Below are positions 24,363-46,283 of a stretch of DNA of 64,000 bases, piece by piece. Source of the DNA: Parvibaculum sp. (lineage in GTDB: Bacteria; Pseudomonadota; Alphaproteobacteria; Parvibaculales; Parvibaculaceae); NCBI GenBank assembly GCA_030645235.1, contig JAUSMV010000005.1, positions 248,001-312,000 on the forward strand, written 5' to 3'. The notes under the pieces are model-generated. The model had not been told where the DNA came from. It searched no databases and saw only the letters and a list, made by a program, of their open reading frames with translations. Numbering within the stretch: the stretch's first letter is position 1; each line of letters opens with the position of its first letter. The position numbers and the translations under genes are program-made.

Positions 24363-25091
24363 TCAGGCAATTCGGGCGGCCAAACGCTGCATCAACCTGA
24401 TTCGCGCGTCCGGCAGATGCCGATCAAGCGGCGCATAAAAATGCCGCTCCAGAAAATGACCAGTGATTTTCAAACCTTCAGCAATATCATCGGGATCACC
24501 AATGCCTGCTTGCGACCCCACGAGAAATGGCGGCAGGCGAAACAGTCGGTCAGCATAAGGCGCGCCCGCTGTGCGGCTCACTGCCCCGCCACTACGTGGC
24601 GAGACATAGGCCAGATCATCACGCACACCCGTCGCCGCACATTGCGCAAGGTCGAGACCGAAGCCGAGTTCCTGCAACAACCCAAGTTCCCAACGCACGA
24701 AAATAGCCGGCCAAATATCAGCATCTTCCATCGTGTCGAGCAGGAAAGAGAAAGCTTCAAACAACCCTGCGTGGGTTTCGCGCTCCGGCAGAATGGCGGC
24801 GACCGAACAGGCCGCACTAAGACCCGTGAGCGCGAAGGCATCATCCATCAGCACACCGGCGCGAGGCTTCAGAAGCTCGACAGTGTATGCGCCGAGATGT
24901 TCGTTCAACCGCGCGCGCCAATGCGCCGTTACCGTGTTCCCAGGCTGGAGCATGCTGGCATAGCGACGCCCCGCACCTCCGCGCAAGAGGCCCATATGCC
25001 GTCCGTGATCGCGCGTGAAAAGTTCGACTATGGCACCGCTCTCGCCATAGCTGCGCGACGACAAAACGATGCCCTGGTCATGCCAATCCAT
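24363..25091 (-). CDS. recO: DNA repair protein RecO
   Basis: RecO helps load RecA onto SSB-coated single-stranded DNA in the RecFOR pathway. The 242-residue protein starts with the OB-fold DQGIVLSSRSYGESGAIVELF and continues with the helical domain containing AYVSPRSGGAVSR. Length is normal. It lies 78 bases downstream of era, in the conserved rnc-era-recO order of alphaproteobacteria. Confidence 0.95.
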   Translation of the reverse strand: MDWHDQGIVLSSRSYGESGAIVELFTRDHGRHMGLLRGGAGRRYASMLQPGNTVTAHWRARLNEHLGAYTVELLKPRAGVLMDDAFALTGLSAACSVAAILPERETHAGLFEAFSFLLDTMEDADIWPAIFVRWELGLLQELGFGLDLAQCAATGVRDDLAYVSPRSGGAVSRTAGAPYADRLFRLPPFLVGSQAGIGDPDDIAEGLKITGHFLERHFYAPLDRHLPDARIRLMQRLAARIA

Positions 25092-25169
25092 AAGCGACCA
25101 CGCTAATGCAGAATCTCAACATACGGCGATTATAGCTATATGTGAGGCACTTGCCTGCCAGATTTGATC

Positions 25170-26120
25170 TTAGTTCTTGGGAAAATCGAGACCCATTTCA
25201 CGATAACGCTCGCGGTCATCGCCCCAGTTTTCACGCACTTTGACGAACAGGAACAAATGCACCTTTGCGCCGAGCATTTCCTGCAGCTCTTCGCGCGCCA
25301 GCGTTCCCACCGTTTTAATAGTTTGCCCGCCCTCGCCCAACGCAATCTTACGCTGGCTCTCACGCTGCACAAAAATGATCTGCTGAATTCGAATAGAGCC
25401 GTCCTTCTTGGTCTCGTAGGACTCGGTCTCGACCGTTAGCGAATAAGGAATTTCATCATGGAGACGCAGAAATAATTTCTCGCGCGTCACTTCAGCAGCC
25501 AGCGAACGCAACGGCACGTCGGCTAACTGGTCTTCGGGATAATGCCACGGACCTTTGGGCATGAGACCCGCGATATGATGCTTGAGGTCTTCGACGCCGC
25601 TGCCGCTCTGGGCTGAAATCATAAACGTGTCAGAGAACAAATCCGTCTCGTTGAGTTCCGTCGCAAGCTTCAGCATCCGCTCGCGACCCTTCTCGTTCAG
25701 AACATCAACCTTGTTGAGCGCCAACACGGCCTTGCGTTTCGGGCCATCACCATAACCCTTGAGGCCATCAATAACGCGGGTGAAATCATCATCATGCCCG
25801 CGCTCGGCATCTATTAAAGCAATCACGGCATCGGCATCGCCCGCCCCGCCCCATGCGGCATCGACCATTGCTCGATCAAGACGGCGCTTGGGCTTAAAGA
25901 TACCCGGCGTATCCACGAACACAATCTGCGTCGCGCCATCAATCGCGATGCCGCGGATACGCGAACGCGTTGTCTGCACTTTATGCGTGACAATGGCAAT
26001 TTTCGCGCCGACAAAGCTGTTCAGTAGCGTCGATTTGCCAGCGTTGGGCGCGCCAATAATAGCGGCGAAGCCGGAGCGCGTTTCACCCGTCGGGGATTTC
26101 GGGTTTTCGGTATCAGTCAT
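25170..26120 (-). CDS. era: GTPase Era
   Basis: Era is an essential GTPase that helps 16S rRNA maturation and 30S assembly. The G domain shows G1 GAPNAGKST, G3 DTPG and G4 NKVD. The C-terminal KH RNA-binding domain includes IFVQRESQRKIALGEGG. The ATG at 26120 has a GGA six bases upstream; an ATG two codons earlier is possible. Either start lies inside the 3' end of rnc, so the two are translationally coupled. Confidence 0.96.
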   Translation of the reverse strand: MTDTENPKSPTGETRSGFAAIIGAPNAGKSTLLNSFVGAKIAIVTHKVQTTRSRIRGIAIDGATQIVFVDTPGIFKPKRRLDRAMVDAAWGGAGDADAVIALIDAERGHDDDFTRVIDGLKGYGDGPKRKAVLALNKVDVLNEKGRERMLKLATELNETDLFSDTFMISAQSGSGVEDLKHHIAGLMPKGPWHYPEDQLADVPLRSLAAEVTREKLFLRLHDEIPYSLTVETESYETKKDGSIRIQQIIFVQRESQRKIALGEGGQTIKTVGTLAREELQEMLGAKVHLFLFVKVRENWGDDRERYREMGLDFPKN

Positions 26121-27696: not shown

Positions 27697-28107
27697 TCAC
27701 CCCTTGTTAGCCACAGGTTCCGCCGAAATTATGACGAAAGCTTGAGCAAGCGGCCCGTCATCCGTGATTGTGAGGTGAATTATGGGCTCAAAACCGGCAG
27801 GCGTTATGGCCTGAAGCCGGGCCAGCGCGCCCCCCGTCAGCGCCATTGTAGGCTTGCCGCCACGCAGATTCACCACACCCATATCCCGCCAATAGACACC
27901 GCGCGACATACCGGTACCCAGCGCTTTGGCGCAGGCTTCCTTGGCCGCAAAACGCTTGGCATAGGATGCCGTACGATTTTTCCGCTTGTCAGATTTGTCC
28001 TGTTCAATCTCAGTAAAAATCCGATTGATAAACCGCTCACCAAACCGTTCGATCGATTTTTCAACGCGAGGAATGGTGATGATGTCATTGCCAATGCCGA
28101 TAATCAT
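27697..28107 (-). CDS. acpS: Holo-[acyl-carrier-protein] synthase
   Basis: AcpS attaches 4'-phosphopantetheine from CoA to acyl carrier protein. The 136-residue trimeric enzyme shows [16 protein letters not shown] with the metal-binding Asp, and the second motif [15 protein letters not shown] with the catalytic Glu and Lys. The start codon overlaps the stop of pdxJ (ATGA). lepB follows after 124 bases. Confidence 0.95.
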
Positions 28108-28859
28108 GCTTCCCTCTTCGGCGCGCGAGCCTGATCCATCAGATCGCGCATCCGCCGGATCGTTGCGGGCAACCCATCGAATATGGCTTCGCCAATCAGA
28201 AAATGACCAATGTTCAATTCGCGTATTTCGCGCAAGGCGGCAACCGGCGTCACATTATCAAAGGTCAATCCGTGACCGGCATGAACCTCCAGCCCCAGCG
28301 CAAAACCTTCACGCGCGCCATTGGCGAGACGCTGAAACTCAGCATCAATTTTGGCAGCGTCTTTGGCGTCACCCGCATGGGCATAAGCCCCCGTATGCAA
28401 TTCCACAACCGGCGCACCGAGCGACACTGCCGCTTTAAGTTGCACCCGGTCTGCATTGATGAAAAGCGAAACACGAATACCCGCATCGGCAAGACGTGAC
28501 ACAAAAGGTTTCAGATGATTATGCTGACCGGCGGCATCCAGCCCGCCTTCGGTCGTCACTTCCTCGCGCCGCTCCGGCACAATGCACACCGCATGCGGGC
28601 GATGACGCAAGGCAATCGCCAGCATCTCTTCCGTCGCCGCCATTTCAAGATTGAGCGGCAGCGACATCTCTCCCATCAGACGCTCAATGTCATGGTCGCG
28701 GATATGGCGGCGATCCTCACGCAGATGCGCAGTGATACCATCGGCACCGGCAGCAGCGGCCATTTCAGCAGCACGCACGGGATCGGGATGCTCCCCGCCG
28801 CGTGCGTTGCGAATGGTTGCCACGTGATCGATATTCACACCGAGACGCAAATTCACCAT
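28104..28859 (-). CDS. pdxJ: Pyridoxine 5'-phosphate synthase
   Basis: PdxJ condenses 3-amino-1-hydroxyacetone-1-phosphate with deoxyxylulose-5-phosphate to form pyridoxine phosphate, the last step of DXP-dependent vitamin B6 synthesis. The 251-residue TIM barrel has [29 protein letters not shown] and VELHTGAYA. The ATG at 28859 gives the standard N-terminus and has GGCGGGG upstream. It starts 13 bases after the DUF2062 gene and overlaps acpS by four bases. Confidence 0.96.
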
Positions 28860-39949: not shown

Positions 39950-40822
39950 ATGACTGACGCAACCGAGCCGAAAGACTTTTTCTATACGTCGCAAGACGGG
40001 CTGCGTCTCTATGCGCGCGACTATGGCGACCGCATGGCGCGCGAAACGCCGGTGATTTGCCTACCCGGCCTCACCCGCAATTCAAAAGATTTCGACATGC
40101 TCGCGCGGCATCTTGCGCCAACGCGCCGTGTGCTCTGTCCCGATTTGCGCGGTCGCGGCCGCTCACAATATTGCGAGAGCTGGACGGACTACACGCCGCA
40201 AAATGAAATGCTCGATATTTTTGATCTGATGAGCGCCCTCAGCATCCGCCATGCTATTTTCATCGGCACATCGCGCGGCGGCATCATCACCATGCTGATG
40301 GCAGCAAACCGCCCCAATACCGTGCGCGGCGCGATCCTCAATGACATCGGGCCTGAAGTGGAATTGGCGGGCCTTAAACGCATCGCGACTTATGCCGGTG
40401 TGATGGAAAATCCGCCAAGCTGGACAGAAGCCGCCTTCAAATTGCGCCTGATGAACGAGCGCGATTTTCCGACGCTCAACGGCGATGATTGGTACGACTA
40501 TGCGCGCCGTACCTTTGCCGAAGAAGCTGGTCTGCCAAAAATTGATTACGACGCAAAAATCGGTGTCGGCCTGCGCAAAGGCCTCGACGCGGCACCCGAT
40601 GGTCCGCCCGCCATGTGGCCCCAGTTCAAGGCGCTCGGCCATGTGCCGACGCTTGTTGTGCGCGGCGAGAACTCAGACATTCTGAGTGCCAGGACCGTGG
40701 CGCGCATGGCGAAAGAACATCCGAACCTCGCCCATGTGACGGTAAAAGATCGCGGCCATGTGCCTTTCCTTGATGAACCGGAAGCCATTGCCGCTATTGA
40801 TACGTTTCTCGGCAATTTTTAG
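39950..40822 (+). CDS. Alpha/beta hydrolase
   Basis: This 290-residue protein has the alpha/beta-hydrolase fold: the oxyanion region VICLPGLTRNSKDFD, PDLRGRGRS, the nucleophile elbow GTSRGG with the catalytic Ser, and the late DRGHVPFLDEPEA with the catalytic His. There is no signal peptide. The substrate cannot be told; relatives include esterases and C-C hydrolases. It follows the transglycosylase after 24 bases and overlaps the end of the convergent methyltransferase by four bases. Confidence 0.9.
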   Translation: MTDATEPKDFFYTSQDGLRLYARDYGDRMARETPVICLPGLTRNSKDFDMLARHLAPTRRVLCPDLRGRGRSQYCESWTDYTPQNEMLDIFDLMSALSIRHAIFIGTSRGGIITMLMAANRPNTVRGAILNDIGPEVELAGLKRIATYAGVMENPPSWTEAAFKLRLMNERDFPTLNGDDWYDYARRTFAEEAGLPKIDYDAKIGVGLRKGLDAAPDGPPAMWPQFKALGHVPTLVVRGENSDILSARTVARMAKEHPNLAHVTVKDRGHVPFLDEPEAIAAIDTFLGNF

Positions 40823-41544
40823 TCCTTCCGCACACGCAGCATCTTTGTCGCGCCGATCTGAAATTCAAAATCAACGTCACAGAGTTCCGGCACGAAACCG
40901 TCAGCCCGCATCGCCTGCATCACCACGGGCAAATGGCTCGATGGTCGCCCGTCGAGATTGAGCAGCGGAAAGACCCGCACCTCGCCCGCCACACGCATCA
41001 ATTCGCGTAAAGCACTGACGTGAAAATCAGCGTTCAATTCATCGCCATAGAGAAACAGCAAATGCGACGACAATGCGAGATCGAAGGTTCCGTCGGCAAA
41101 GGGCAGATCGGGCAATGATCCCGGCACATAGCGGACCGCTCCCTCGCGCGCATAATCAGCGAGGAATAAATCGAGTGCCTCACGCCGCCGCTTATGGACA
41201 AGCTCTTCCGAGCCGTAGAACTTCCAGTTGAAGCGATAGCGCGCCGCTGTCATGCCCGCCTTCATGGCCTTGGCTGTGCGCTCAAACTGCGCGCGGATGG
41301 CACCGCCTTCAGCCGCATAGATCGGATCAATGGCCGTGACGTGACGACCTTGCGCTGAGGCTTCACCGGCAAAGGAGGCCGGACCACCGCCGACATCAAG
41401 AATACGGGCGGCCAACGGCACATCGCTCAAGGCGAAAAAGGCCTCATATTCATCAAGCCGACGCCCCCAGGGCACGATGCCGTCGAGATTGAACTCGCTC
41501 TGCCGGTGCGTGGGTCGGTGTTTTGTCTCTTTTTTCGCGATCAT
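40819..41544 (-). CDS. Class I SAM-dependent methyltransferase behind a Trp-type attenuator
   Basis: This 241-residue protein has the Rossmann methyltransferase motif I ILDVGGGPASFAGEA (residues 48-62), the acidic HVTAIDP strand end, and the motif IV-like LPFADGTFDLALSSH region. The N-terminal FNLDGIVPWGRRLDEYEAFF block recurs in an uncharacterised bacterial family. The substrate is unknown. GGAGAG precedes the ATG. The striking feature is upstream: a leader peptide with two Trp codons and an attenuator end 72 bases before the start, so expression should respond to charged tRNA-Trp. No trp gene is in the window. Confidence 0.85.
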   Translation of the reverse strand: MIAKKETKHRPTHRQSEFNLDGIVPWGRRLDEYEAFFALSDVPLAARILDVGGGPASFAGEASAQGRHVTAIDPIYAAEGGAIRAQFERTAKAMKAGMTAARYRFNWKFYGSEELVHKRRREALDLFLADYAREGAVRYVPGSLPDLPFADGTFDLALSSHLLFLYGDELNADFHVSALRELMRVAGEVRVFPLLNLDGRPSSHLPVVMQAMRADGFVPELCDVDFEFQIGATKMLRVRKD

Positions 41545-41616
41545 TTTTCTCTCCGTTCAAAGCCGGAGACCGCGCCTCAGGGAAGGCGGCGCGTTTTCAA
41601 AGGAACCTACGAAAAC

Positions 41617-41691
41617 AAAAAAGCCGCCTCCAAAAGGGGCGGCCAAACCGGCAGGTCGATATGCGACATGTCTGGGCCACCCGTCAGGTGG
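41617..41691 (-). promoter_or_regulatory. Transcription attenuator (segments 1-4) with terminator
   Basis: Read on the minus strand, four segments form mutually exclusive pairs. Segment 1 is CCACC (41687-41691), directly after the Trp codons and before the leader stop. Segment 2 is GGGTGGCC (41675-41682). Segment 3 is GGCCGCCC (41637-41644). Segment 4 is GGAGGCGGC (41623-41631) followed by T6 (41617-41622). 1:2 pairs 5 bases; 2:3 pairs 8 bases with one G-U and forms the antiterminator; 3:4 forms the terminator (GCCGCCCC / GG-A-GGCGGC, TTTT loop). This is the standard trp-leader logic. The regulated gene by position is the methyltransferase. Confidence 0.75.
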
Positions 41692-41731
41692 TCCACCATG
41701 CGCCATTGCTGCCAATCAAAAATGTCATCAT
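41684..41731 (-). CDS. Leader peptide with tandem Trp codons
   Basis: The 15-residue peptide MMTFLIGSNGAWWTT is encoded on the minus strand, with TGG TGG at 41693-41698 near its end. The first ATG has AAGGA four bases upstream and the second, in frame, has it seven bases upstream, which is ideal. The stop codon lies between attenuator segments 1 and 2, exactly where it should be for ribosome-controlled attenuation. It resembles trp leader peptides in size and Trp placement, though those of Rhizobiales often have three Trp codons. It acts as a sensor, not as a protein. Confidence 0.72.
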   Translation of the reverse strand: MMTFLIGSNGAWWTT

Positions 41732-42054
41732 CTCGTCCTTATTTCGCGGGCGACCCTACGCCAATGCCCGAAGCCTGCCAAGAGCCTCCGGATTGCGCCT
41801 GCGACACATGGCCTAATGCAATGCAGCAATCACAGGATATAGATAGGCCGTTCACGTCGAATCCCGCAGCTTTCTGCGCCTTTACCTGCATTATGCGTCC
41901 ATCCCCCCGCTCAGGACGCATTTGCGCCGCGTAAACCTCATCTCCGGCCCTTTTGCCGACCCGACCGCCGCTATATACCCTATATTCAGACGCAGCCCTT
42001 TCCCCCCAAGCACTCAAGGGCTCACCCCCGCCCCATTTCGTTCCGGAGTCCCCC
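41732..42054. promoter_or_regulatory. Divergent region between the attenuator and the RND operon, with an inverted repeat
   Basis: This 323-base region must hold promoters for the leader transcript (leftward) and the RND operon (rightward). It contains a perfect 8-base inverted repeat, ATGCGTCC (41893-41900) and GGACGCAT (41914-41921), with a C-rich spacer of 13 bases. That could be an operator for the pump or a transcript end. No coding frame looks convincing on either strand. Confidence 0.4.
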
Positions 42055-43188
42055 ATGTTGACGAAACGCATGATCATCATGCTGGCCATCACCGGCTCTA
42101 TCCTCGGCCTCATTGTCGCCTGGTTGGTCTTTATGAACGTCATGGCCGGCATATTCATTTCCGGCATGAAGTCTCAACCCCAGACGGTTTCAACAACCGT
42201 GGTCGGCTATGAGGAATGGGAACCCAAAATCAACGCCGTCGGCACGATGAAAGCCAAAAAGGGCACCGACATCACGCCGCAACTCTCCGGCATCGTCTCG
42301 AACATTTCGTTTGAGTCCGACAGCGACGTCAAAGAAGGCGACATTCTCATCAGCTTTGCCGATGAAGATGATGTGGCCAAACTGAAGGCGCTGGAAGCCT
42401 CCGCCGATCTCGCGCGCCTCACCTATAACCGCAGCAAAGAGCTTGTCCGCAAACGCGCGGTGAGCCAGGCCCAGCTCGACACATCCACCGCCAATCTCAA
42501 AAACGCCGAAGCGCAGGTCGCCGCCCAACAGGCTCTGGTGGACAAAAAGCAAATCCGTGCGCCCTTCGACGGCCATGTCGGTATCCGCCTTGTCGATATC
42601 GGCCAATTCCTCAATGCAGGCCAAAAGGTCACGACGCTACAAGCGCTGGACCCGATCTTCATCGACTTCACATTGCCCCAGCGCGAAGTGCGTCTCATCG
42701 CCATCGGTCAGGACATTTCGATCCACACAGACGCTTATCCCGACCAGACCTTCACCGGCAAAGTGCTGGCCATGGACCCCAAGCTTGATCCCGTGACGCG
42801 CAACATTTCGGTGCGCGCCGAACTTGCCAATCCCGACCGCAAGCTGCTGCCCGGCATGTTCGCCTCGGCCTCAATCACAACCGGCGCGACAGAAAAGAAG
42901 CTGACACTGCCGCAGACCGCCATCACCTATAATCCCTATGGCGAAACCGTCTTCCTCGTTCTCAAAGGCGAGCCGGACGAAGACGGCAAAGAAACGCTGA
43001 AGGCGAAACAAAAATTCGTCAAAACCGGCACCAAGCGCGGTGATCAGGTCGCCGTCATTGAAGGTGTTGCGGAAGGCGATACCGTTGTCACCAGCGGTCA
43101 GTTGAAACTGAAGAACGACACGCCGCTCACAATCAACAATGACGATCCGCTGCCCAATGACGCTGCCCCCGTGATGCAGGACCAGTAA
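42055..43188 (+). CDS. RND efflux periplasmic adaptor (membrane fusion) protein
   Basis: This 377-residue adaptor links an inner-membrane RND pump to an outer-membrane channel. It has an N-terminal membrane anchor (IIMLAITGSILGLIVAWLVF), the lipoyl halves (VGTMKAKKGTDITPQLSGIV and KQIRAPFDGHVGIRLVDIGQF), a helical hairpin between them, and a beta-barrel domain (FTLPQREVRLIAIGQDI). The pattern is close to MexH/AcrA-type adaptors. The ATG at 42055 has a GGAG eight bases upstream. The pump gene follows after 5 bases. Confidence 0.93.
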   Translation: MLTKRMIIMLAITGSILGLIVAWLVFMNVMAGIFISGMKSQPQTVSTTVVGYEEWEPKINAVGTMKAKKGTDITPQLSGIVSNISFESDSDVKEGDILISFADEDDVAKLKALEASADLARLTYNRSKELVRKRAVSQAQLDTSTANLKNAEAQVAAQQALVDKKQIRAPFDGHVGIRLVDIGQFLNAGQKVTTLQALDPIFIDFTLPQREVRLIAIGQDISIHTDAYPDQTFTGKVLAMDPKLDPVTRNISVRAELANPDRKLLPGMFASASITTGATEKKLTLPQTAITYNPYGETVFLVLKGEPDEDGKETLKAKQKFVKTGTKRGDQVAVIEGVAEGDTVVTSGQLKLKNDTPLTINNDDPLPNDAAPVMQDQ

Positions 43189-43193
43189 GCCAG

Positions 43194-46100
43194 ATGAATT
43201 TCACAGACATCTTCATTAAGCGTCCTGTCCTTGCCACTGTCGTGAGCCTGCTCATTCTGGTGCTCGGCTTACGCTCGGTCTCGCTTTTGCCCGTGTTGCA
43301 GTTTCCGCGCACGGAAAACGCCGTCGTCACCGTCTCGACCACCTATTTCGGGGCCAGCGCCGATCTCGTTTCAGGCTTCATCACGACGCCGCTTGAAAGC
43401 TCCATCGCGCAGGCCAACGGCATCGACTATATGAACTCGACAAGCTCGCCCAGCGTGTCGGTCATTCAGGTCCAGATCCGTCTGAACTATGACAGCGCCA
43501 AGGCGCTCACTGAAATCAACACGCGCGTCAACGCCGTGCGCAACCAACTGCCAAGCGAAGCGCAACAACCTGTCATCACTATTGCTGTCGGCGAAACAAT
43601 CAGCAGCATGTATATGGGCTTCTCGTCCGATGTGCTGGCCAACAATCAGATCAGCGACTATCTGCTCCGCGTCGTCGCACCAAAACTGCAGGCCGTCGAA
43701 GGCGTGCAACAAGTCGAATTCCTCGGCGAAAAACGCTTCGCGCTGCGCGTCTGGATGGACCCCGACAAACTCGCTGCCTATAACCTCACCGCCACCGACA
43801 TCCGCACAGCACTTGCGCGCAACAGCTTCCTGTCCGCCCTCGGCGCCACTAAGGGCCAGATGGTGCAGGTCGATCTGACGGCCGATACAAGCGCCAGTTC
43901 GCTTGAAGACTTCCGCAAACTCATCGTCAAAACCGCCAACGGCTCCTCCGTCCGTCTCGAAGATGTCGCCAACGTATCGCTCGGCGCGGAAGACTATGAA
44001 TCATCGGCCTATTTCGACGGCAAGCCATCTGTGCAAATCGGCATCAAAGTCGCGCCGACTGCAAACCTTCTGGACGTCACCAAGCGCATCCGCAATATCT
44101 TCCCGGAAATTCACGCGCAGCTGCCGGAAGGCCTGAACGGCGCCATCGCTTATGACGCCACCAAATTCGTCAACAGCTCAATCAATGAAGTGGTACGCAC
44201 GCTTGTTGAAGCGCTCGTCATTGTGACGCTTGTGGTGTTCCTGTTCCTCGGCTCACCGCGCTCGGTCCTCATCCCGACGCTCGCCATCCCGCTGTCACTC
44301 ATCGGCGCCTTTGCCTTCATGGTGATGTTCGGCTTCTCGATCAATCTCCTGACGCTGCTCGCGCTTGTCCTCTCCATCGGCCTCGTGGTTGATGACGCCA
44401 TCATTGTCGTTGAAAACGTCAACCGGCATCTGGAAGACGGTCAGCCACCACGACAAGCGGCCATCCTCGCCGCGCGCGAGTTGAGCGGCCCGATCATCAC
44501 CATGACAATTGTGCTGATCGCTGTTTACATCCCTATCGGTTTCATGGGCGGCCTCACAGGCGCGCTCTTCACCGAATTTGCCTTTACACTTGTCGGCGCA
44601 GTCACCGTCTCCGCCGTCATCGCTCTCACCCTGTCGCCGATGATGTGCGCGCGCTTTTTAAAGCCGCATAATGATCCGAGCACCAGTGATTGGGAAAAGC
44701 GCATCGTGAAGTATATCGATGACCGCTTTGAAAAATTACGCCATCGCTATCTGCAATGGCTGCACATGAGCCTTGACGAACTGCCTGTGGTCACCGTCTT
44801 TGCCTGCATCGTGGTGGTGAGCATTTTCTTCCTCTACAGCTATTCAAAAACTGAACTTGCGCCGGAAGAAGATCAGGGCATCGTCATCGGCTTCGTCACA
44901 TCAGCGCCGACCGCAACACTGCAACAGCGCCAGATCACCAGCGCCAAGGTGTTCAATACCTATGCGACGCATCCCGAGATGGATCACGTCTTCCAGTCCG
45001 TCTCGCCGTCCTTCACCGTCGCCGGTCTCGTGACAACGCCGTGGGACGAACGCACTGTCAGCACGTCACAGTTGCAGCAAAAACTGCAGCAGGAACTCGC
45101 CCATATTCCCGAAGCCCGCGTCGTCATGTTCCAGCCGCCTGCCCTTCCCGGCGCGAGCGGGTTGCCTATTTCGCTCGTAATCCAGACAACAGAATCTTTC
45201 GACCAGCTTTATGAAGTGGCGCAAAACATTCTTGCCAAGGCACAGGCGAGCGGCAATTTTATCTTCCTTGATTCAAACCTCAAATTTGACAAGCCGCAAA
45301 CCGAACTCATCATTGATCGCGACAAAGTCGCTCAGATGGGCCTCACCATGACCGATATCGGCGCAGCCATGTCGTCCATGCTCGGTGGCGGCTATGTCAA
45401 CTATTTCAGCCTTGAAGGCCGGTCCTACAAAGTTATTCCGCAGGTTCAGCAAAAATTCCGGCAAAATGCCGACCAGCTGTCCAACTATTACATCAGCACG
45501 GCAACCGGAGAATCGATCCCGCTTTCGACTGTCGCGCATTTCGAAACCAAAACCGTTCCTGAAACGCTCAATCACTTTCAGCAGTTGAATGCCGCCACCC
45601 TGTCCGGTGTGGCGATGCCCGGCGTCGCGACGGGTGACGCGCTGGCTTATCTCAGCGAGCTCGCAACCGAGAACATGCCGCAAAGCTACACGCTCGATTA
45701 CGCAGGCCCTTCGCGCCAGTTTATGAAAGAGTCGAGCGCCATCGTTGTCACGTTCTTCTTTGCGCTCGTCATCATCTTCCTGACGCTCGCGGCCCAGTTT
45801 GAAAGTTTCCGCGATCCGGTCATCATTCTTGTGACCGTGCCTATGTCGATCAGTGGCGCACTCTTGTTCATCATCACCGGCATCGGCGGCGCGAGCCTCA
45901 ATATCTATACGCAGGTCGGCCTCGTCACACTTATCGGCCTCATCAGCAAGCACGGCATTCTCATCGTGGAATTTGCCAACACGTTGCAGGAAGAAGGCAT
46001 GAGCAAGCGCGAAGCCATTGAGGAAGCGACCAGCATCCGCCTGCGTCCGATCCTGATGACAACAGCGGCCATGGTGCTCGGCGTCTTGCCGCTCATTCTC

Positions 46101-46283
46101 GCCAGCGGCGCAGGCGCAGCGTCACGCTACAATCTCGGCCTCGTGATTGCGACAGGTCTTGCCATCGGCACGCTCTTCACGCTTTTCGTCGTGCCTGCCA
46201 TGTATCTGATGCTGGCCGAAGAACACGATCCGAGCGAGCGCGACGAAGACGAAGACGTCCCGGCCACACTCGCCGAGGCCTAA
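43194..46283 (+). CDS. RND multidrug efflux pump, HAE1 family (MexI-like)
   Basis: This 1029-residue proton-driven pump has 12 membrane helices and two large periplasmic loops. It starts MNFTDIFIKRPVLATVVSLL, close to MexI-type pumps. Helix 4 keeps the proton-relay Asp-Asp pair in GLVVDDAIIVVENV, and helix 10 has a Lys in ISKHGILIVEF. Length is normal. It forms an operon with the adaptor; no outer-membrane factor is encoded here, so a TolC/OprM-like partner must come from elsewhere. The next gene, nasT, begins only 45 bases later, but the two functions look unrelated. Confidence 0.95.
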   Translation: MNFTDIFIKRPVLATVVSLLILVLGLRSVSLLPVLQFPRTENAVVTVSTTYFGASADLVSGFITTPLESSIAQANGIDYMNSTSSPSVSVIQVQIRLNYDSAKALTEINTRVNAVRNQLPSEAQQPVITIAVGETISSMYMGFSSDVLANNQISDYLLRVVAPKLQAVEGVQQVEFLGEKRFALRVWMDPDKLAAYNLTATDIRTALARNSFLSALGATKGQMVQVDLTADTSASSLEDFRKLIVKTANGSSVRLEDVANVSLGAEDYESSAYFDGKPSVQIGIKVAPTANLLDVTKRIRNIFPEIHAQLPEGLNGAIAYDATKFVNSSINEVVRTLVEALVIVTLVVFLFLGSPRSVLIPTLAIPLSLIGAFAFMVMFGFSINLLTLLALVLSIGLVVDDAIIVVENVNRHLEDGQPPRQAAILAARELSGPIITMTIVLIAVYIPIGFMGGLTGALFTEFAFTLVGAVTVSAVIALTLSPMMCARFLKPHNDPSTSDWEKRIVKYIDDRFEKLRHRYLQWLHMSLDELPVVTVFACIVVVSIFFLYSYSKTELAPEEDQGIVIGFVTSAPTATLQQRQITSAKVFNTYATHPEMDHVFQSVSPSFTVAGLVTTPWDERTVSTSQLQQKLQQELAHIPEARVVMFQPPALPGASGLPISLVIQTTESFDQLYEVAQNILAKAQASGNFIFLDSNLKFDKPQTELIIDRDKVAQMGLTMTDIGAAMSSMLGGGYVNYFSLEGRSYKVIPQVQQKFRQNADQLSNYYISTATGESIPLSTVAHFETKTVPETLNHFQQLNAATLSGVAMPGVATGDALAYLSELATENMPQSYTLDYAGPSRQFMKESSAIVVTFFFALVIIFLTLAAQFESFRDPVIILVTVPMSISGALLFIITGIGGASLNIYTQVGLVTLIGLISKHGILIVEFANTLQEEGMSKREAIEEATSIRLRPILMTTAAMVLGVLPLILASGAGAASRYNLGLVIATGLAIGTLFTLFVVPAMYLMLAEEHDPSERDEDEDVPATLAEA

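Follow-up and report, generated by a model that had tools for sequence, protein, structure and literature searches.

The methyltransferase locus and its leader

The window analysed here is a 64,000-nt stretch of a Parvibaculum sp. contig (JAUSMV010000005.1). Its minus strand carries a short leader ORF with two adjacent Trp codons (WW), an intrinsic terminator and the gene for a class I SAM-dependent methyltransferase (Table 1). The initial annotation had described the region between the leader start and the end of the T-run (nt 41617-41731) as a tryptophan-type attenuator, and direct reading of the minus strand bore out each anatomical detail: the 15-codon leader with its SD, double ATG, two Trp codons and stop, the position of that stop between segments 1 and 2, the alternative pairings 1:2, 2:3 and 3:4 with the T6 terminator, and the 72-nt gap to the methyltransferase.

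Table 1. Features of the leader and the gene it is predicted to control.
Feature	Position (nt)	Strand	Basis and remarks
Predicted leader promoter	41753-41781	-	-35 TTGGCA (41781-41776), 17-nt spacer, -10 TAGGGT (41758-41753); no transcript data
Leader SD, AAGGA	41736-41740	-	Sequence
Leader ORF, MMTFLIGSNGAWWTT and stop	41684-41731	-	15 codons; ATG at 41731 and 41728; 14 codons from the second ATG
Adjacent Trp codons, TGG TGG	41693-41698	-	Sequence
Segment 1, GGACCACC	41687-41694	-	Partner of segment 2; shares bases with the second Trp codon and with two Thr codons
Leader stop, TGA	41684-41686	-	Sequence
Segment 2, GGGTGGCCC	41674-41682	-	Begins 13 nt past the first base of the second Trp codon
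Segment 3, GGCCGCCCC	41636-41644	-	Pairs either with segment 2 (antiterminator, -21.9 kcal/mol) or with segment 4 (terminator, -17.2 kcal/mol)
Segment 4, GGAGGCGGC (GG-A-GGCGGC)	41623-41631	-	Forms the 3' side of the terminator hairpin
T6 run of the intrinsic terminator	41617-41622	-	Sequence
Methyltransferase, class I SAM-dependent (241 aa), putatively controlled gene	40819-41544	-	Pfam Methyltransf_11; ATG at 41544

The predicted fold of nt 41610-41740 is better than that of 200 out of 200 shuffled sequences (z -3.69). A search of the whole window with Rfam at gathering score returned no trp leader, the sole match being a tRNA, and none was found when nt 41450-41900 were searched up to E = 5, where the best match of any kind had an E of 0.17. 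With a looser scan, 74 terminator-like sites were detected in the window. Four of these have an in-frame TGGTGG ORF upstream (two sharing one ORF), and among the four only the present locus has a short ATG leader. A loose pattern of WW, stop and T-run matched 11 times in the whole genome of this strain and eight times in a reversed control. On visual inspection of the matched sequences, one alone of the 11 resembles a leader with a terminator, and this is again the present locus.

Conservation of the leader

Orthologues of the methyltransferase occur in 24 of 27 Parvibaculum genomes, including that of the present strain, and in three of 10 other genomes of the family; exclusion of a partial match in genome G036 (28% identity) reduced the number of loci from 28 to 27. 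The initial annotation had proposed to search such orthologues for a conserved Trp leader, and one is present at all 27 loci, in Parvibaculum and in two sister genera. Each has an in-frame leader with an ATG, which encodes WW in 26 cases and WR in the remaining one (L022, where the second TGG is CGG); the first TGG is kept throughout. The other residues and the length of the peptide vary, so that WWT alone is conserved. By eye, an SD-like stretch precedes the orthologous leaders, with no clear SD in L024, L026 and L027. The 3:4 terminator can form at every locus (-15.2 to -21.2 kcal/mol), as can the 2:3 hairpin (-20.6 to -26.6 kcal/mol, with a weaker one of -13.4 in L008), and segment 2 always starts 12–15 nt from the first base of the second Trp codon. 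The stop codon lies beyond segment 2 in five loci (L007, L008, L016, L017 and L020).

A promoter-like sequence (TTGGC[AG]-N17/18 plus a -10-like hexamer) is found no more than 110 nt upstream of the leader ATG at 23 of the 27 loci, although the level expected by chance was not computed. In L024 and L027, which belong to a sister genus, a different promoter-like sequence (TTGCAA-N16-TATTCT, seen by eye) ends only 7 nt before the ATG and there is no SD, so these two leaders may be translated from leaderless mRNAs. The trpL of S. meliloti has likewise been proposed to be leaderless (PMC7298713, excerpt). At many of the loci (L001-L027) a further, small hairpin is visible between segments 2 and 3, its sequence differing from locus to locus (e.g. 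GTCG-CATAT-CGAC, GATCG-CGATC); such a hairpin would draw these two segments towards each other.

Compensatory stem changes, a further check named in the initial annotation, were found only outside the genus. Within Parvibaculum none of 17 pairs is changed on both sides, and as the stems of these 22 sequences are nearly invariant, covariation says little. Against the sister genus there is one compensated pair: in L024 and L027 segment 1 reads CCGCC in place of CCACC and segment 2 GGCGG in place of GGTGG, which replaces A-U by G-C in helix 1:2 and at the same time turns a U-G pair of helix 2:3 into C-G. A covariance model gave one strong match (at least 58 bits) in each of the 24 Parvibaculum genomes carrying the gene and no strong leader match in the three genomes without it; further matches reach 35.7 bits and were not inspected singly. 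The leaders of the sister genera score 29.8, 25.9 and 21.5 bits, within the background. As the model does not separate these three from background, their identification rests on position and anatomy.

Genomic context and trpE

The genes upstream of the leader differ in all three places that were read (the window, genome G013, taken to be that of P. lavamentivorans DS-1, and genome G033), while the leader stays with the methyltransferase. In DS-1, the upstream position is occupied by two genes (L132:8132-9767) that we take to resemble glycine/sarcosine and dimethylglycine (glycine-betaine) methyltransferases. They end at the leader promoter, the -35 box of which overlaps the end of the second gene, and this gene end can also be seen in several relatives. 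In the window, an RND efflux pair (a membrane fusion protein and a pump) is encoded on the plus strand (nt 41953-46283), divergently from the leader; it is absent from this position in DS-1 and G033, where the neighbours differ. The peptide peTrpL of S. meliloti acts on a multidrug resistance operon (PMC7298713, excerpt).

The possibility that trpE has a leader of its own, also raised in the initial annotation, was not borne out. The trpE start could be located in 32 genomes of the family, including all Parvibaculum genomes except G002, G021 and G023 (24 of 27), and in none of the 32 does a WW ORF lie within 350 nt upstream. This also rules out that the leader of the methyltransferase is a relic of a trpE leader.

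Properties of the methyltransferase

The protein matches Methyltransf_11 (PF08241) with 34.6 bits against a cut-off of 21.2. It is not recognised as the malonyl-ACP O-methyltransferase BioC, for which it scores 20.8 bits against an NCBIfam equivalog cut-off of 342, and no rRNA methyltransferase family (Erm, RlmA) was matched in Pfam or NCBIfam up to an E of 0.001. Pfam detected methyltransferase domains only, with no RNA-binding domain. There is no close match among solved structures; the best was YcgJ (E 0.06), followed by, among others, glycine and glycine-sarcosine N-methyltransferases (E 0.7–1). An AlphaFold model built from an alignment of three rows reached a pLDDT of 44.5 and was discarded. 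Searches for antiphage-defence proteins returned a single methyltransferase, mad2, as a weak partial match (17.9 and 25.4 bits).

Distant relatives and their control

Outside the family, relatives of the enzyme are mostly 33–45% identical and sporadic. They were detected in 10 of 385 genomes of the class (E up to 0.001, some of them weak), in six of 398 genomes of the phylum (one weak) and on 22 of 72,556 plasmid records (23 in a further count); a search of plasmids for near-identical DNA gave two 36-base matches only. In one set of relatives, 21 of 23 loci were left out as partial or weak. No relative was confirmed in viral contigs, nor did the Niallia protein described below match any phage. 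Upstream DNA was read for 27 distant relatives, namely 17 plasmid records (six of the 23 were left out) and L029, L030, L154-L158 and L174-L176. For 21 of the 27, neither a WW ORF within 450 nt upstream nor a T-box was found, the T-box scan having covered 24. Two relatives without visible Trp control (L162, L182) are carried by small Acinetobacter plasmids, beside toxin-antitoxin genes.

A WW ORF is present upstream of five of the 27, all of them on Rhodococcus plasmids. Here the leader is MTLTQHWWPYF, preceded by an SD, with 13 nt between the second Trp codon and segment 2. Three alternative hairpins are possible (-10.6, -11.8 and -11.7 kcal/mol), and there is no U run. The DNA is nearly identical in seven of seven Rhodococcus records, which are therefore counted as a single observation.

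A T-box (RF00230, 135.3 bits) was found before one relative, that of Niallia sp. Man26, where it occupies L172:2181-2432 and ends 50 nt before the methyltransferase gene. Its specifier bulge ends in GAA-UGG-G before the CUUC strand, so that the central frame reads UGG, with AUG one base upstream as a rival. The last five bases of the bulge are read in three frames by TBDB (PMC7778990, in the section available), and a purine is described as following the specifier (PMC7583486, likewise in part). A BLAST search with this T-box gave nine matches, of which two from Listeria were left out and one was judged from positions only. The two best full-length matches on other plasmids, those of Cytobacillus spongiae and Priestia flexa, both precede trpS, as does a partial match in P. 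megaterium NZ_CP064272.1, and the match in NZ_CP127876.1 fits a trpS arrangement by position. The first three of these, before trpS in Cytobacillus and Priestia, are T-boxes (L184, L185 and L187; 133–149 bits) that carry GAA-UGG-R aligned with the GAA-UGG-G of Niallia. Given the same codon in the same position, we take the Niallia specifier to be Trp (UGG); the shared loop settles the choice against AUG. On an Enterococcus gilvus megaplasmid two T-boxes stand in tandem (L186:1486-1717 and 1842-2068), the better of which has UGG after GAA; no gene is annotated downstream in the stretch examined. The record of a further match, from Acetoanaerobium, has no annotation at that place.

Two relatives lie close to a trpS gene. 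On the P. megaterium plasmid pN447-3.2, a trpS behind a T-box (trpS at 24495-25496) is followed 2.5 kb away by a relative (27967-28674), the interval holding one GNAT gene and one hypothetical gene. The number of plasmid records expected to carry both trpS and a relative by chance is 0.04 (23 x 127 / 72,556, from 23 records with a relative and 127 with trpS). None of 10 other plasmid records with a relative, those of Niallia and Rhodococcus included, carries trpS. GNAT genes also neighbour the relatives in Synechocystis and Sulfuricurvum. In genome G486, the single full TrpRS gene stands 65 nt upstream of the relative, within what we presume to be the run ribH-nusB-trpS-MTase-scpA-scpB-rluB (names other than trpS are our assumption), and this adjacency may reflect an insertion into a housekeeping operon. 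In a tree of 30 rows, the Trp-controlled rows require three changes, forced by well supported branches; these could also be one gain and two losses. Parvibaculaceae, Rhodococcus and Niallia thus gained Trp control separately, or other lines lost it.

Auxiliary trpS genes and the frequency of WW leaders

Four of the 27 Parvibaculum genomes (G010, G013, G022 and G023) encode a second full-length TrpRS (L199, i.e. G013:C1:2552238-2553218 on the minus strand, L200, L201 and L218). All four copies are preceded by a WW leader (MKTETNIANFWWLAC or similar) and then a terminator, and helices 1:2, 2:3 and 3:4 are possible in each, the 2:3 form being weaker in L200 and L201 (-14.1 against -17.7 kcal/mol). 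The covariance model did not list these leaders and is therefore unsuited as a general test for Trp leaders. No WW leader was seen before the main trpS in the four genomes checked (G000, to which the window belongs, G013, G003 and G016). The auxiliary gene of DS-1 adjoins, by eye, an integrase-like ORF. Together with the survey of trpE, these data indicate that the Trp attenuators found in the genus sit on the extra TrpRS and on the methyltransferase and not on trpE. Only four of the 24 Parvibaculum genomes carrying the methyltransferase have an auxiliary TrpRS.

The frequency of such leaders was assessed over 405 ORFs of at least 150 aa in 17 stretches, the window included. The rule called for an SD-preceded ATG leader of 8–25 codons that contains WW and lies within 250 nt of the ORF. 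It was satisfied by 11 of the 405 ORFs: seven methyltransferases, three auxiliary trpS genes and one unrelated ORF. The rule missed the methyltransferase at two loci for want of an SD (L133 and L134) and at L165, whose record splits the gene. Since the stretches were partly picked around these genes, the single unrelated match is the informative figure; WW leaders are otherwise rare, with one unrelated ORF among 405.

Regulatory mechanism

The leader very probably acts in cis as a ribosome-mediated transcription attenuator that couples the methyltransferase to the charging of tRNA-Trp, although there are no expression data. It shares with the classical trp attenuators (E. coli trpL, trpL-trpE(G) of Rhizobiales) a leader with adjacent Trp codons, four segments, a choice between 2:3 and 3:4, an intrinsic terminator and a stop between segments 1 and 2. 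It differs from them in that a methyltransferase is controlled, in the lack of a WW leader before trpE (32/32 genomes) and in matching no Rfam trp leader. Of the two explanations offered by the initial annotation, a new member of the Trp regulon under classical attenuation is supported by the 27 orthologous loci and by Trp-controlled relatives in two other phyla. The initial annotation did not see the probable link, which is to tRNA-Trp charging and TrpRS rather than to Trp biosynthesis.

With charged tRNA-Trp available, the ribosome would pass the WW codons to the stop and cover segment 2, so that the 3:4 terminator would form and end the RNA at about 130 nt; in the five relatives with a later stop, it would reach the stop just past segment 2. 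If Trp-tRNA runs short, through Trp starvation or inhibition of TrpRS, the ribosome would be expected to stall at the Trp codons and leave segment 2 free, allowing the 2:3 antiterminator to form and the methyltransferase to be transcribed. That segment 2 is free in one case and covered in the other is deduced from its 12–15 nt spacing and from the general size of ribosome footprints. Leader anatomy, geometry and conservation rest on sequence and its comparison, as does Trp-specific control of some relatives in other phyla; the switching itself is inferred. The T-box of Niallia, with its UGG specifier, presumably responds to the same signal through another RNA and by another mechanism, and no T-box is present here.

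The other explanation in the initial annotation was that the attenuated RNA works in trans like rnTrpL of Sinorhizobium. The leader peptide might also do so, as peTrpL does, and in either case the methyltransferase would be a bystander. The layout of the terminated RNA does resemble that of rnTrpL, and the peTrpL of Bradyrhizobium has 15 residues, with WW close to the end (PMC7298713, excerpt). Against this, the leader adjoins the methyltransferase at all 27 loci while the upstream genes differ in the three places read, there is no strong match in the three Parvibaculum genomes without the gene, and no WW leader lies before trpE in the 32 genomes, unlike the position of rnTrpL-type RNAs before trpE(G). 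The peptide, moreover, is not conserved outside WWT. We therefore find no support for this explanation and consider it unlikely, although a trans role is not excluded, given that conservation of peTrpL is likewise poor in other species (PMC7298713, from the part available).

Methyltransferases behind a leader peptide and terminator are also known from antibiotic responses of the yxjB/erm type, in which drug-stalled ribosomes are sensed and 23S rRNA is methylated; yxjB, encoding RlmA(II), is induced by tylosin (PMC6851288, excerpt). It is conceivable that the present leader senses ribosomes stalled at WW by such a drug and that the enzyme is an rRNA methyltransferase, but this is very unlikely given the absence of rRNA methyltransferase families from the Pfam and NCBIfam matches up to E 0.001, the free variation of the peptide before WW, and the occurrence of a T-box before one relative, since T-boxes respond to uncharged tRNA rather than to ribosome stalling. 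Finally, only promoter and terminator might be conserved, with the WW ORF a by-product of the stem sequence. Part of the conservation of the second Trp codon can indeed be structural, since segment 1 overlaps it. The first TGG, however, is unpaired in the consensus 1:2 stem and is still kept at 27 of 27 loci, and the in-frame ATG is kept equally while the residues between vary, which leaves the by-product explanation scarcely credible. Ribosome-mediated attenuation in cis remains the preferred mechanism.

Function of the methyltransferase

As some relatives are also tied to tRNA-Trp, the enzyme probably helps these bacteria when charging of tRNA-Trp is blocked. Compounds with that effect include chuangxinmycin, an inhibitor of TrpRS. 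In Streptomyces, Vecchione and Sello reportedly described an auxiliary, indolmycin-resistant TrpRS in 2009 and, in 2010, control of this resistance gene by ribosome-mediated attenuation. Duplicated TrpRS confers indolmycin resistance in that genus (PMC6804068 and PMC9437257, both in excerpt), an attenuator has been predicted before trpS2 of S. avermitilis (PMC1262725, excerpt), and S. lividans has a trpL2-trpS attenuator arrangement (PMC8079986, excerpt). The present locus resembles these, as do the auxiliary trpS genes of Parvibaculum, in placing a Trp-codon attenuator on a gene linked to TrpRS and not to Trp biosynthesis; it differs in that the gene is a methyltransferase without a demonstrated resistance phenotype.

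Protection from an inhibitor is suggested by the control of relatives through uncharged tRNA-Trp in unrelated bacteria, by their frequent location on plasmids and by the kind of control shared with auxiliary TrpRS. We propose tentatively, with nearly as much reason to believe as to doubt it, that the methyltransferase belongs to the response to blocked tRNA-Trp charging, where it probably detoxifies a TrpRS inhibitor of the indolmycin/chuangxinmycin type. The role as an indolmycin-type resistance determinant is inferred from regulation and gene neighbourhood only, and resistance is untested. On a wider scale, the relatives could represent a widespread, mobile and unrecognised family of resistance genes that inactivate TrpRS inhibitors by methylation, switched on by uncharged tRNA-Trp via independently evolved RNA devices, namely an attenuator in Alphaproteobacteria, a WW leader in Actinobacteria and a T-box in Bacillota, with an additional TrpRS nearby in some cases; this is a possibility about which we are somewhat more doubtful than confident.

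The main alternative is that the same cis attenuator serves an enzyme with no connection to antibiotics. By methylating tRNA-Trp, TrpRS or a metabolite derived from Trp, such an enzyme would aid charging, decoding or Trp supply under starvation. A gene kept in 24 of the 27 Parvibaculum genomes resembles one with a permanent role more than a resistance gene of scattered occurrence, and this near-genus-wide presence fits such a substrate as well. Control of the kind seen on auxiliary trpS agrees with it too, as does the relative adjoining the only full TrpRS of G486. It is less easily reconciled with the sporadic and often plasmid-borne distribution outside the genus (10/385 class and 6/398 phylum genomes, 22/72,556 plasmid records), and Pfam detects no RNA-binding domain. 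A purpose of this sort is possible, but on the present evidence we consider it rather doubtful.

No report of a Trp-controlled methyltransferase was found among the matches listed in the open-access literature, a scope that leaves out supplements and most subscription papers. Naville and Gautheret (2010) do not use the word methyltransferase in their main text, and in Wels et al. (2008) it occurs twice, both times as methionine synthase. Through three different RNA arrangements, each in another phylum, the data connect this orphan methyltransferase family with the charging of tRNA-Trp, and a gene known by nothing but its methyltransferase annotation thereby acquires a function that can be tested. 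They also reveal Trp attenuators in a genus in which trpE lacks them, as judged from 24 of the 27 genomes. If the enzyme does act on an inhibitor, it would represent an enzymatic route of resistance to TrpRS inhibitors, which is absent among the literature matches listed, and would point to naturally occurring TrpRS inhibitors where these bacteria live. Genes for TrpRS are themselves found on plasmids: trpS is present on 127 plasmid-labelled records, some of them chromosome-sized and others of 15–43 kb, at least 25 of the records being from Staphylococcus, and some of these genes are possibly auxiliary TrpRS genes.
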